Shown: piece by piece, positions 49,492 through 63,096 of the stretch | How positions within the stretch are numbered: the stretch's first letter is position 1 | Layout: the number at the start of each line of letters is the position of its first letter | DNA from: Promethearchaeota archaeon | GTDB lineage: Archaea; Asgardarchaeota; Lokiarchaeia; Sigyniarchaeales; SOKP01 | Direction of reading: 5' to 3' | Length of the DNA stretch: 64,000 bases | NCBI GenBank assembly: GCA_019058295.1 | Contig: JAHPZI010000002.1 | Span: 62,001 to 126,000 of the forward strand | Program-made: the position numbers and the translations under genes | Notes under the pieces: model-generated | Database searches by the model: none | Told to the model about the DNA's origin: nothing | What the model saw: the letters and a program-made list of their open reading frames with translations, nothing else

Positions 49492-50148
49492 TTGAAAGTG
49501 GTTGTTTCAGGTGCCTCTCAATGTGGAAAATCGGATTATATTAAATTCTTTGATAAAGATTCTATGAACGTACATGTAAAAGGACATACCGTTGCAATGG
49601 ATGTAGCATATATAAATTTTGAGGGTTTTCAAATCACATTGTTCGGCACGCCTGGTCTTTCAAGATTTAAAATAATGAGAAAAATTATTTTAAATGGTGC
49701 TGATGGAATTATTTTCATTTTTGATGCTGCTAATCCCAAATCTGATAACGATGCTATATCAGTATTAAATGAAATAAAAAATCCAAAGGTTCCAAAAGTT
49801 TATTTAGCTAATAAACAAGATTTGAAGGATGCACGTACACCAAAAATGTTGCAAACCCAAATTAAATTACCTAAAGATTGTAAAATTTTCCCGTCAAGTA
49901 CAAAGACTGGACAAAATATAAAAGAATCTTTAAAATATTTAGTATCTGAAATCTTTAAAAAATACAAAAAGCTTTTACAAATTCTCTGCAATTATGAAAC
50001 TAATATTAGAGGATTAGCAGAGAAAATACACAAGAATAAGGCTCAAATGCGCGAATTTTTATATGCTCTGGAAATTAGACGATTCATTAAGATTGATAGG
50101 GTTAATAGGGTATATCGAGTTAATGAAGTCTTAAAAAAATTAATTTAA
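49492..50148 (+). CDS. COG2229/MglA-like small GTPase with C-terminal winged helix
   Basis: 218 residues. G1 GASQCGKS (P-loop), G3 in the form LFGTPGLSRFK (the FGTPG variant of COG2229 and SRPRB-like GTPases, not Ras DTAGQ), G4 NKQD and G5-like SSTKTG. After ~160 an extension, NIRGLAEKIHKNKAQMREFLYALEIRRFIKIDRVNRVYRVNE, looks like a winged helix. Such domains could tie GTP state to DNA or protein binding. Start is TTG 49492; an ATG at 49469 is out of frame. Small GTPases are abundant in Asgard archaea; partner here unknown. Confidence 0.82.
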   Translation: MKVVVSGASQCGKSDYIKFFDKDSMNVHVKGHTVAMDVAYINFEGFQITLFGTPGLSRFKIMRKIILNGADGIIFIFDAANPKSDNDAISVLNEIKNPKVPKVYLANKQDLKDARTPKMLQTQIKLPKDCKIFPSSTKTGQNIKESLKYLVSEIFKKYKKLLQILCNYETNIRGLAEKIHKNKAQMREFLYALEIRRFIKIDRVNRVYRVNEVLKKLI

Positions 50149-55997: not shown

Positions 55998-57638
55998 TTA
56001 TCGCTTGGAATGCTTCTTTTGGTAATAAATTACACCGACGCCTAAGATTCCAAGCAAGATAATAAATAGAATTATGGGATTAAAACTTTCCTCACCGTTA
56101 TCTCCTCCTCCATCATCATCATCCGTGCTTGGAATTTGCCCATATGGTTGAGATACTCCAGAACTGCCAAGCTTAAATCTCCAGAGGTCATTCAACCATC
56201 CAAAATCACCTAAATCGTCATAAGCATGACCTCCGAATAACCATAAATTTCCGTCCGTACCCGTCCAAGAAACTGAAAAATATCTAGCTCCCGGATAATT
56301 CGCCTTATCAGGAACTCCCTTCGTGCCATATACGCCATTTTGATTTGTGGTTTTATTTCCTGACATCCACGCCCACTCCTTTGAGGTGATGTTAAATCTC
56401 CAGAGGTCATTCAGATACCCAGAACCGAATCCGGAATAACCCAAACCTCCAAATAACCATAAATTTCCATCCATATCTGTCCCAGAAACAGGATTATATC
56501 TACCTCCCGGATAATTCGCCACATCAGGAACTCCCTTCGTGCCATATATGCCATTTTGATTTATGGTTTTTTTCCCTGACATCCATGCCCACTCCTTTGA
56601 GGTGATGCTAAATCTCCAGAGGTCATTCAGATATCCAGAACCACCTGATTCGGGATAACCATCTCCTCCGAATAACCATAAATTTTCATCCATATCTGTC
56701 CAAGAAACAGAACCCTTTCGACCTCCTGGATAATTCGCACTATCAGGAGCTTCCTTCGTGCCGTATACGCCATTTTCATCTGTGGTTTTATTCCCTGAGA
56801 TCCACGTCCATTTCTTTGAGGTGATGGTAAATCTCCAGAGGTCATTCAGCTGTCCAAAATCACCTGATTCGTTATAACCAAGACCTCCGAATAACCATAA
56901 ATTTTCATCCGTATCTGTCCAAGAAACAGAATCCTCTCGACCTCCTGGATAATTTGCCCTATCTGGAACCTCCTCCGTGCCATATACGCCATTTTGATTT
57001 ATGGTTTTATTCCCTGAGATCCACGTCCATTCCTTTGAGGTGATGCTAAATCTCCAGAGGTCATTAAGATATCCATTAATTAAACCTGATTCGGGAAGAC
57101 CATCTCCTCCAAATAACCATAAATCTCCATAAGTATCCCTCCAAGAAACAGAACCCTTTCGACCTCCCGGATAATTTGCCCTATCAGGAACTCCCTTCGT
57201 GCCATATACGCCATTTTGATTTGTGGTTTTATTCCCTGAGATCCACGTCCATTCCTTTGAGGTGATGGTAAATCTCCAGAGGTCATTCAGATACCCCCAA
57301 CTACCTGATTCGGGAAGACCAATACCTCCGAATAACCATAAATTTCCGTCCGTATCCGTCCAAGAAACAGGTCTATCTCTAGCTCCCGGATAATACGCCA
57401 TATCAGGAACGTCATATACCCCATTTTCATCTATGGTTTTATTCCCTGACATCCACGTCCAACTATAGGTCGCTCCATTACAATATGGTGTGCTTAAGGA
57501 GCCTGTTTTCTTGGACCCTATGACAACATCAGCAGAGAAAGTTATTGAGATAATTGATGTTGTTAATGCCGTGAAGCACAAAACAAGGACAAAATTTAAC
57601 CCTCTCACTTTACTCTGATATGTATTTAAGTTAGACAT
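55998..57638 (-). CDS. secreted kelch-repeat protein with C-terminal membrane anchor
   Basis: 546 residues. N-terminal signal segment (LNFVLVLCFTALTTSIISI), then six kelch units from ~60 to ~492, each like WTWISGNKT...NGVYGTKGVPD.ANYPGGR..SVSWTDTDGNLWLFGG...LNDLWRF, forming one six-bladed propeller. Then an acidic DDDDGGGDNGEE spacer, one span (PIILFIILLGILGVGVIYY) and KKHSKR at the end, so the propeller faces outside. Repeats are also near-identical in DNA (period ~210-219 bp), so copy number may be unstable. Probably binds glycans or proteins at the cell surface. Confidence 0.85.
   Translation of the reverse strand: MSNLNTYQSKVRGLNFVLVLCFTALTTSIISITFSADVVIGSKKTGSLSTPYCNGATYSWTWMSGNKTIDENGVYDVPDMAYYPGARDRPVSWTDTDGNLWLFGGIGLPESGSWGYLNDLWRFTITSKEWTWISGNKTTNQNGVYGTKGVPDRANYPGGRKGSVSWRDTYGDLWLFGGDGLPESGLINGYLNDLWRFSITSKEWTWISGNKTINQNGVYGTEEVPDRANYPGGREDSVSWTDTDENLWLFGGLGYNESGDFGQLNDLWRFTITSKKWTWISGNKTTDENGVYGTKEAPDSANYPGGRKGSVSWTDMDENLWLFGGDGYPESGGSGYLNDLWRFSITSKEWAWMSGKKTINQNGIYGTKGVPDVANYPGGRYNPVSGTDMDGNLWLFGGLGYSGFGSGYLNDLWRFNITSKEWAWMSGNKTTNQNGVYGTKGVPDKANYPGARYFSVSWTGTDGNLWLFGGHAYDDLGDFGWLNDLWRFKLGSSGVSQPYGQIPSTDDDDGGGDNGEESFNPIILFIILLGILGVGVIYYQKKHSKR
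56165..57461 (-). repeat. six tandem ~213-bp kelch-unit repeats
   Basis: Six in-frame copies of a ~210-219-bp unit inside the kelch gene, strongly conserved at DNA level. Recent amplification or gene conversion is likely. Confidence 0.75.
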
Positions 57639-60885: not shown

Positions 60886-62484
60886 CTAAGGCTGGAATCC
60901 TGTTTTTGAAGCGTTACTTGCTTTAATGATTCTGTCAACCCTTAAAACTAACTTTGCTAATTCGCTTCCAGATTTTAATATATAATTTACCAATGCTGCT
61001 GGCTCCACTATACCTTTTTCAAAATTATTTCCGATTGTATTTGTAATGGTGTCAATTCCTATCCATTTATCAGCATCAGTTTTATGAGCAGCTCTTAATT
61101 CGGTCAATCTTTCAATTTCATCTAATCCAGCATTATTAATTAAGGTTTTAGGGATTTCTTCAAGTGCAAGAGCATATGCTGTGACTGCGATTTGTTCTTT
61201 ACCACCAATTTTATTAGCGTAATCTTTTATTTTTTTGGCAAGTTCGATATATATTGCTCCACCGCCAGCGACTACCATTTGTGTATCAATAATTTTAGCA
61301 ATTACAGATAAAACATCATTTAAAGTGATTTCAGCAGAATTTAAAATCTTTTCAAGCCCTCCTTTAAGTAAAATCGACACAGATTTAGGGTTTTTACATC
61401 CGGTAAAGAAAGTATATTCATTATCCTCAATTTTTTCAAATTTCACTGTTTCTGCGTAGCCTAAATCATCTTCAGTTAAAGAAGTCAAATCATCAATTTG
61501 TTTTGCTCCAACGGCTTTTAAAACCGCCTTTATATCGCTATCACCTAAATTCTTTATCGCAGCAATGTTTTCCCTGGCTAAATAGGCGCCAAACTTATCG
61601 GAAATGTCTTTATTGTTTACAATCATATTTATTCCCAAGTCTTTAAAGATTTTCAAGTAATCTTGAAGTATTTTTTCTTCTTGATTCTTGAACCCTTGAA
61701 TATCCTCAGGTCTAAAGATTTGGATTTGAGCGTCAAACTCTGTTTTTACGACGTCCAATTTCTTTCGAATAACAGCAATTTTCACATTTTTCAATGCATT
61801 GGGCATAGCAGGATTAACTTTTTCCTTTTGAATGTAAACACCGTTAATTAATTCAGAATCCTTAAGAGATTTTCCGGCAGCTTTAACAATTTTTATATTT
61901 CCAACTTTAGCAAATGTATTTTCTTCACCAGCTATTTTCTTAACTGCCTTTAAAGCTAAGTCCGCAAAAAATTCTTTTAATGGAGCAATATCCTTCGCGT
62001 TCATAGCTGTCATAGCAGCATTTTTAAGATTTTTATCGTCATCTTTAGAAATTTTCATGGCTATTTCATTTACTAACTCAATTGCTTTATCTGTAGCGAT
62101 TTTATAGCCAGTTATGATATGTTTAGGATGTATTGATTGTTCAATTAAATCTAAAGCATTTTTTAAAAGAGCTGAGGTAAAAATTACGGCAGACGTAGTT
62201 CCATCTCCAATATCCGTGTCAATTGCTTTAGCTACATTTACCATCATGATTGCAGCAACATTTTCAATATCTAATGCTTTAAGAATTTCTGCACCATCGT
62301 TTGTAATAGTCGTATCACCTAACGTATCAACGAGCATCTTACTCATTCCTTTTGGTCCTAAAGTTGACTTAATTGTTTCTGTGATTGCAAGCATAGCATT
62401 AATATTTTGTTCTCGAGCTTGTTTTTCTTGAGTTTCTTCTGTACCTTCCTTAAGTATGATTATGGGTACTCCTCCAAACGACAT
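60886..62484 (-). CDS. thermosome (group II chaperonin) subunit
   Basis: 532 residues. GPKGMSKMLVDTLGDTTITNDGAEIL near the N-terminus and IGDGTTSAV hold the ATP/Mg site; VAGGGAIYIELAKKI and the KTLINNAGLDEIERL region are in the C-terminal equatorial domain. The segment near GGLEKILNSAEITLNDVLSV departs from the usual GGTE..DE.ER...DAL, though the Asp remains, and the end lacks the Gly-Gly-Met tail. So a functional but divergent subunit. A perfect 30-bp palindrome covers its probable TATA box. Folds cytosolic proteins in two eight-membered rings. Confidence 0.93.
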   Translation of the reverse strand: MSFGGVPIIILKEGTEETQEKQAREQNINAMLAITETIKSTLGPKGMSKMLVDTLGDTTITNDGAEILKALDIENVAAIMMVNVAKAIDTDIGDGTTSAVIFTSALLKNALDLIEQSIHPKHIITGYKIATDKAIELVNEIAMKISKDDDKNLKNAAMTAMNAKDIAPLKEFFADLALKAVKKIAGEENTFAKVGNIKIVKAAGKSLKDSELINGVYIQKEKVNPAMPNALKNVKIAVIRKKLDVVKTEFDAQIQIFRPEDIQGFKNQEEKILQDYLKIFKDLGINMIVNNKDISDKFGAYLARENIAAIKNLGDSDIKAVLKAVGAKQIDDLTSLTEDDLGYAETVKFEKIEDNEYTFFTGCKNPKSVSILLKGGLEKILNSAEITLNDVLSVIAKIIDTQMVVAGGGAIYIELAKKIKDYANKIGGKEQIAVTAYALALEEIPKTLINNAGLDEIERLTELRAAHKTDADKWIGIDTITNTIGNNFEKGIVEPAALVNYILKSGSELAKLVLRVDRIIKASNASKTGFQP

Positions 62485-62521
62485 TTGAGATCATATCCTT
62501 AATTTTCTTATTTTTCTAATT

Positions 62522-62551
62522 GTTTTCTTAGTTTATATAAACTAAGAAAAC
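62522..62551. promoter_or_regulatory. 30-bp perfect palindrome over the thermosome promoter
   Basis: Both halves are exact complements around a central TTTATATAAA, 38-67 bp upstream of the thermosome ATG. The centre is in the right place for a TATA box with a ~25-nt leader. A regulator binding here would block TBP, as known for archaeal heat-shock repressors such as Phr. The same dyad was not found upstream of the hsp20 or cdc48 genes. Confidence 0.65.
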
Positions 62552-62640
62552 TTAAAAAAGTTTATGACTTGGAGATCATTAAAAAATAATTATTTAATCA
62601 ATAAATTAGGAAATAATTTGTAATTTATAATTTGAAAATA

Positions 62641-63096
62641 TTAGATTTCAACATAAGAAGAGTTCTTATATTCTTTAAGAACCATATTCGAAACCGTACG
62701 AGTAACAAAATCTTTTTCGTTTAATTCTCTTACAAAATTATGAACATCTTCAGATTCCCTAAATCTACATATTAGAGCTGCTGATTGTTCCCCTGTCGTG
62801 TGAAAAACCGAGCAAACTTCGGGTTTTTTTCCAATTTCGTTAAGAATTTCTTCAGTATGTTTTCCATCAACATGAATCCGAATTAAGAAAGTTAATTTAT
62901 AACCCAATTTAGTATTATTAAGTTTCAGCGTGTAACCTTCTATTATACTCTTTTCTTTAAGTTTTGAGATTCTATTGTGAATGGTGCCTATGGAGATGCC
63001 GAGCTGATCCTGAATTTCTCTGTAAGACTTGCGTGCGTCTTCTTGCAATATTCTTAAGATCTCTTTGTCAATACCGTCAAGTTGTTCTTTTTTCAT
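62641..63096 (-). CDS. Lrp/AsnC-family transcriptional regulator
   Basis: 151 residues from ATG 63096, where MKKEQLDGIDKEILRIL gives the usual family start; an ATG at 63150 would add 18 hydrophobic, AT-rich residues. HTH: DARKSYREIQDQLGISIGTIHNRISKLKEKSIIEGYTL. RAM domain: LTFLIRIHVDGK, VFHTTGEQSAALICRF. Divergent from hisI only by distance; it is next to the thermosome promoter palindrome, so it might bind there, which is a guess. Confidence 0.85.
   Translation of the reverse strand: MKKEQLDGIDKEILRILQEDARKSYREIQDQLGISIGTIHNRISKLKEKSIIEGYTLKLNNTKLGYKLTFLIRIHVDGKHTEEILNEIGKKPEVCSVFHTTGEQSAALICRFRESEDVHNFVRELNEKDFVTRTVSNMVLKEYKNSSYVEI

Follow-up and report, generated by a model that had tools for sequence, protein, structure and literature searches.

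The window, the 64-kb stretch of DNA analyzed here, contains a gene for a thermosome (group II chaperonin) subunit that is preceded by a perfect palindrome. The ATG of this gene (62484, minus strand) is located 38–67 bp downstream of the palindrome GTTTTCTTAGTTTATATAAACTAAGAAAAC, whose two 15-bp arms are 100% complementary and are not separated by a spacer. Upstream of the palindrome, at a distance of 9 bases, lies a conserved 17-bp element with the consensus GATCYCNAWRTCAYAAA, which is abutted by a TATA-like block, and an Lrp/AsnC-type regulator is encoded beyond it (Table 1). Two further genes of the window were noted. The first encodes a 546-aa kelch-repeat protein (55998–57638) whose tandem repeats are almost identical and whose two termini carry hydrophobic segments; it is likely anchored in the membrane as a surface protein. 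Small ORFs of a different frame recur in step with it. The second (49492–50148) encodes a Ras/Arf-like small GTPase, typical of Asgard genomes.

Table 1. Features of the thermosome locus, with positions in the window.
Feature	Position	Strand	Remarks
Thermosome (group II chaperonin) subunit, paralogue q1	60886..62484	-	532 aa; Pfam Cpn60_TCP1
30-bp palindrome	62522..62551	.	This genome only; arm nearer the gene (62522-62536) ancestral, arm farther from it (62537-62551) derived
Predicted start of the mRNA leader	62522..62555	-	If the conserved TATA is used; palindrome would fold as a hairpin of 13 bp with a loop of 4 nt
Chaperone-regulon element GATCTCCAAGTCATAAA (consensus GATCYCNAWRTCAYAAA)	62561..62577	-	F orientation (TATA-element-gene)
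TATA-like block TTTTTTAAT	62578..62586	-	Abuts the GATC side of the element; promoter inferred
Lrp/AsnC-type regulator	62641..63096	-	151 aa (counted from ATG); family-wide synteny with this thermosome; candidate regulator

The preliminary description had called the sequence before the thermosome gene a 30-bp perfect palindrome that is very unlikely to arise by chance, and both statements were borne out. It is the longest perfect dyad of the window, the next best having 10 bp per arm. The largest arm among 60 simulated third-order Markov windows was 12 bp, reached once. Extrapolation from this simulation (0.017 per window at 12 bp, falling by a factor of ~0.3 per added bp) gave an expectation of ~5e-4 per 64 kb for a 15-bp arm. 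The palindrome is a single-copy sequence in the 3.2-Mb genome, even with up to 3 mismatches allowed, and does not occur at the other thermosome gene of this genome.

For comparison with relatives, thermosome genes were searched in 58 genomes (the window's own and 57 relatives) and the available leaders were then inspected. The palindrome was found in none of the readable thermosome leaders of the 57 relatives, and only one of 68 family thermosome leaders, that of the window gene, had a perfect dyad of more than 10 bp per arm. The preliminary description had proposed to look for the dyad before the thermosome genes of relatives and elsewhere in the genome, and had itself named lack of conservation as speaking against its reading. 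No copy was found in either place, and the palindrome was rejected as a conserved operator.

The thermosome leaders of the closest genomes suggest how the palindrome may have arisen. G003 and G004, whose thermosome is 92–94% identical to that of the window, retain the right arm together with the sequence downstream of it (ATATAAACcAAGAAAACAATTAGAAAAATAA), and have an unrelated, longer sequence in place of the left arm. G001 and G002, which lie outside the trio formed by G003, G004 and the window's genome, align with the longer form and thus support it as the ancestral state. Because the right arm is shared with G003 and G004 and the left arm has no match there, the left arm arose within the lineage of the window's genome. 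It probably originated as an inverted copy made locally from the right arm, with a loss of ~20 bp; such an event would account for the net deletion as well as for the perfect symmetry. Template-switch scoring required 23 edits for a linear path versus 8 with an inverted copy, and 158 of 300 shuffled sequences gained at least as much. This shuffle test did not discriminate, because the model leaves the deletion cost-free.

The sequence that is conserved at this position of the thermosome leaders is the 17-bp element. The closest relatives carry an identical block, AATGATCTCCAAGTCATAAA, 9 bases upstream of the palindrome position. In the window's 3.2-Mb genome, exact GATCYCNAWRTCAYAAA occurs at two sites only, one per thermosome gene. 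When two mismatches were allowed, 29 matches were obtained versus 23 for the reversed control, and these matches were treated as chance because they are about as frequent as those of the control. The element was present with 0–1 mismatch in 61 of 68 family thermosome upstream regions, compared to 0.26% of shuffled and none of 68 reversed upstream regions. A scan of 228 Asgard genomes detected the exact element in 57 of the 65 genomes of the Lokiarchaeota family versus 12 of the 163 others; its reversed control was nearly absent.

We then classified 121 exact sites by their adjoining genes, 113 within the family and 8 outside it. Within the family, chaperone genes account for 107 of 113 sites: 94 stand before thermosome genes, which belong to three paralogue groups, and 13 before dnaK and/or grpE, usually as one site in the gap between the divergent genes. 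Four of the other 6 family sites are a single orthologous coding site in an oxidoreductase-like gene; the remaining two comprise another coding site and a site before a carbohydrate phosphorylase gene. None of the 8 classified sites outside the family is located at a thermosome, dnaK or grpE gene. The distribution of GATCYCNAWRTCAYAAA fits that of a chaperone-regulon operator, namely a site shared by several chaperone genes and rare elsewhere.

Two further occurrences were observed. In G009 (L066, 1501–1517), the exact element lies ~100 bp before the carbohydrate phosphorylase gene, either by chance or as an extension of the regulon. At the start codon of the window thermosome gene, GATCTCAAATG (62483–62496) matches the initial part of the element (GATCTC-A-A); this repeat is present in the window's genome and in G004, not in G003, and is probably due to chance.

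An information profile of the element was built from 47 non-redundant sites. The search pattern fixed the core positions, and their invariance in the profile is in part a consequence of this selection. Outside the pattern, a TATA-like T-W-T-W-W-A immediately adjoins the element on its GATC side, and an A-rich tail lies on the opposite side. In this TATA-like block, T at −6 and AA at −3/−2 are kept in all 17 F-type sites. The element itself is partially two-fold symmetric (GAT-N-T-NN-A-N-ATC, extended by ATGAT/ATCAT), which fits binding by a dimer. It occurs in both orientations, each time with the TATA-like block on its GATC side. The F orientation (TATA, site, gene) is common for the thermosome paralogue of the window, and the R orientation (site, TATA, gene) is usual for the thermosome paralogues q2 and q3. 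The spacing between TATA box and transcription start is usually ~25 bp in archaea, and the start of the window thermosome gene would be near 62555. Since the conserved geometry sets the TATA box at ~62578–62586, the palindrome is probably located inside the mRNA leader.

With moderate confidence, we propose that the 17-bp TATA-abutting element, and not the palindrome, controls the thermosome promoter as a repressor-type chaperone operator, and that the palindrome is young, with little or no regulatory role. GATCYCNAWRTCAYAAA would be the operator of a chaperone regulon of the Lokiarchaeota family, comprising the thermosome paralogues and the divergent dnaK/grpE pair. In the unstressed cell, a dimeric DNA-binding protein would occupy the element and block TBP/TFB or RNA polymerase. 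Stress would free the protein from the element and thereby lead to chaperone production; heat induction is assumed here from the set of genes. In F promoters the bound protein would lie over the stretch from TATA to start, and in R promoters over the BRE. The repressor reading is preferred because occupancy would stop initiation in F and R promoters alike; as the geometries of the two differ, that a single mechanism serves both is something we infer. The palindrome, downstream of the element, would be a lineage-specific change produced by a template switch from the ancestral right arm.

The preliminary description had suggested that a dimeric or tetrameric repressor bound to the palindrome occludes TBP and confers heat-shock control. 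A putative TATA-adjacent, dyad-like operator common to heat-shock genes is indeed present, but it is the other sequence, 9 bp upstream. Control of heat-shock expression by a TATA-occluding dimer was probably the right idea for this promoter, tied to the wrong sequence.

Instead of binding a repressor, the element could function as a special core-promoter element, for instance as a BRE recognized by an alternative TFB. In both orientations it directly adjoins the TATA box with fixed spacing, and in R-type promoters it takes the place of the BRE. Heat-responsive BRE/TATA core promoters have been reported in haloarchaea (PMC9133787), and strong BRE elements in heat-induced genes of Sulfolobus (PMC10653856). 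However, a BRE sets the direction of transcription, yet the orientation of the site flips between genera for the same gene, and the divergent dnaK and grpE genes are served by one site. We consider a core-promoter role unlikely.

The predicted location of the palindrome in the leader raises the possibility that it acts as RNA, folding into a 13-bp hairpin at the mRNA 5′ end and thereby stabilizing the thermosome transcript or tuning translation with temperature. If the conserved TATA is used, the dyad would lie at ~+4 to +33 of the transcript. The predicted folding energy of the hairpin is −12.4 kcal/mol at 37°C, and the fold of the leader is better than that of 200 of 200 shuffled sequences (z −3.8). 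On the other hand, the hairpin lies before the ribosome-binding region and leaves AAGGAU and the start codon uncovered, it is predicted to stay folded up to 65°C with the start region in a separate weak stem, and it has no counterpart in any relative. A role as RNA is improbable. An RNA thermometer that masks the SD was rejected, as the hairpin lies upstream of AAGGAU and does not open below this temperature in the model. A search against Rfam gave no credible match, only one match to a miRNA precursor far under the cut-off.

We regard it as quite improbable that the palindrome itself is the operator, where a dimeric or tetrameric regulator (Lrp or another) would cover a central TATA box and repress the thermosome gene. 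The palindrome had been described as centred on the TATA box of this gene. The central TTTATATAAA, 53 bp before the ATG, resembles a TATA box well, but the TATA-like block conserved in the family is the one abutting the element. At the position of the centre, AAATATAA is found throughout genus g1 (four of four relatives), which leaves room for a TATA box there. The arms, far above the chance expectation for the window, and the adjoining Lrp gene also speak for such an operator. Against it, the palindrome occurs in one genome only and not at its second thermosome gene, one arm is unmatched in the closest relatives, and the sequence that is conserved is a different element.

An assembly or amplification artefact deserves hardly any credence. 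The relatives are MAGs, the window's genome is a fragmentary assembly of 30 contigs (79% complete), the dyad has no second copy and chimeric reads also yield local inverted copies, but the dyad lies inside a 184-kb contig with the sequence back in register on both flanks, and a simple foldback would not rejoin the locus. The palindrome is probably an accidental feature of a single genome, with some room for a leader hairpin or a private operator. It cautions that even a conspicuous perfect dyad may have arisen by accident in one lineage, next to a genuine signal.

As candidate regulators, the preliminary description had named the neighboring Lrp and an ArsR-type protein. Among the 14 ORFs of the window that were scanned, no ArsR-type protein was found. 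The Lrp gene is the only regulator gene that recurs beside this thermosome and among the neighbors of the element sites (58 loci; cluster representatives judged by eye). It is orthologous and adjoins this thermosome paralogue in most genomes, either divergently or in parallel, and the linkage is kept although the relative orientation flips between genera. The window's genome has nine AsnC-domain matches. The promoter of the Lrp gene is without the element except where it is shared divergently. Moreover, G011 (99% complete) has two perfect element sites at other thermosome genes, while no copy of this Lrp or of this thermosome paralogue was detected in it. With these observations, Lrp was not accepted as a proven regulator, and the probability that it is the regulator of the element appears rather low.

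Similar elements were found in other Asgard lineages. In the sister family, TGACTTAGACKT was present in all 9 thermosome upstream regions first examined, and 16 of the 19 exact matches to an extended pattern precede thermosome genes. The other 3 (in G042, G037 and G046) precede a CxxCxxCC-domain gene (G042) or genes alike to it. The corresponding sites, with TGACTTAGACTTCCT before the gene for a CxxCxxCC zinc/iron-chelating domain (L292, L293 and L296, site 1501; domain assigned by Pfam for L292 alone), may mark an extra member of the regulon. In other Asgard families, TTTATATAGAAGTNC, consisting of a TATA box and an abutting element, precedes thermosome, dnaK (Hsp70) and Hsp20 genes. It was located at L311 (205) and at L315, L314 and L322 (1501); Hsp20 was confirmed by Pfam in L315, and L311 is alike by eye. 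Homology of the three lineage elements is plausible. We tentatively suggest an ancient Asgard chaperone regulon of thermosome, DnaK/GrpE and Hsp20 genes, whose TATA-abutting operator may have diverged into lineage-specific sequences (GATCTCTAAGTCATAAA in the present family, TGACTTAGACTTCCT in its sister family and TTTATATAGAAGTSC in others) and whose regulator would be unrelated to Phr, HSR1 and HrcA.

The element GATCYCNAWRTCAYAAA looks like the operator of a previously undescribed Asgard chaperone (heat-shock) regulon, probably under a dimeric repressor. Our literature search, in which most subscription journals were out of reach, found no published description of an Asgard chaperone operator. 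As a putative operator common to the thermosome, DnaK and GrpE genes of Lokiarchaeota, which are among the archaea closest to eukaryotes, the element offers a direct bait for the missing regulator, and from it the regulon can be predicted in newly sequenced members of the family.

The same regulon logic is known from bacterial CIRCE/HrcA, where a short inverted repeat is common to chaperonin and dnaK/grpE genes; the site described here differs in being AT-rich and abutting the TATA box. The half site TTAGCACTC of CIRCE (TTAGCACTC-N9-GAGTGCTAA) is absent upstream of the window thermosome gene, and HrcA (PF01628) had no match in the window's 79%-complete genome, with 7 control genomes positive. 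Membership in CIRCE/HrcA was rejected on these grounds.

In the literature consulted, Phr and HSR1 are the only archaeal heat-shock regulators described (PMC9133787), and their regulons are without thermosome genes (PMC10653856). The Phr operator of Pyrococcus furiosus resembles the present element in being a core-promoter operator of archaeal heat-shock promoters with proposed release upon heating, and Phr prevents the recruitment of polymerase (PMC9133787). It differs in its sequence, with TTTA at −10, TGGTAA at the start and AAAA at +10, over 29 bp. Neither TGGTAA nor its complement occurs in the 200 bp upstream of the window thermosome gene, and the element was rejected as a Phr operator. 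HSR1 of Archaeoglobus fulgidus, an autoregulated repressor, also has a dyad (CTAAC-N5-GTTAG) near a heat-shock promoter, but its regulon consists of hsp20 and an AAA+ ATPase, with no thermosome (PMC9133787, PMC10653856). CTAAC-N5-GTTAG had no match upstream of the window thermosome gene, and HSR1 membership was likewise rejected. The BRE/TATA core promoter of haloarchaeal hsp5 is similar in that heat control is exerted at the core promoter (PMC9133787). No operator or dedicated regulator has been reported for hsp5, whereas here a long, specific site is kept across paralogues.
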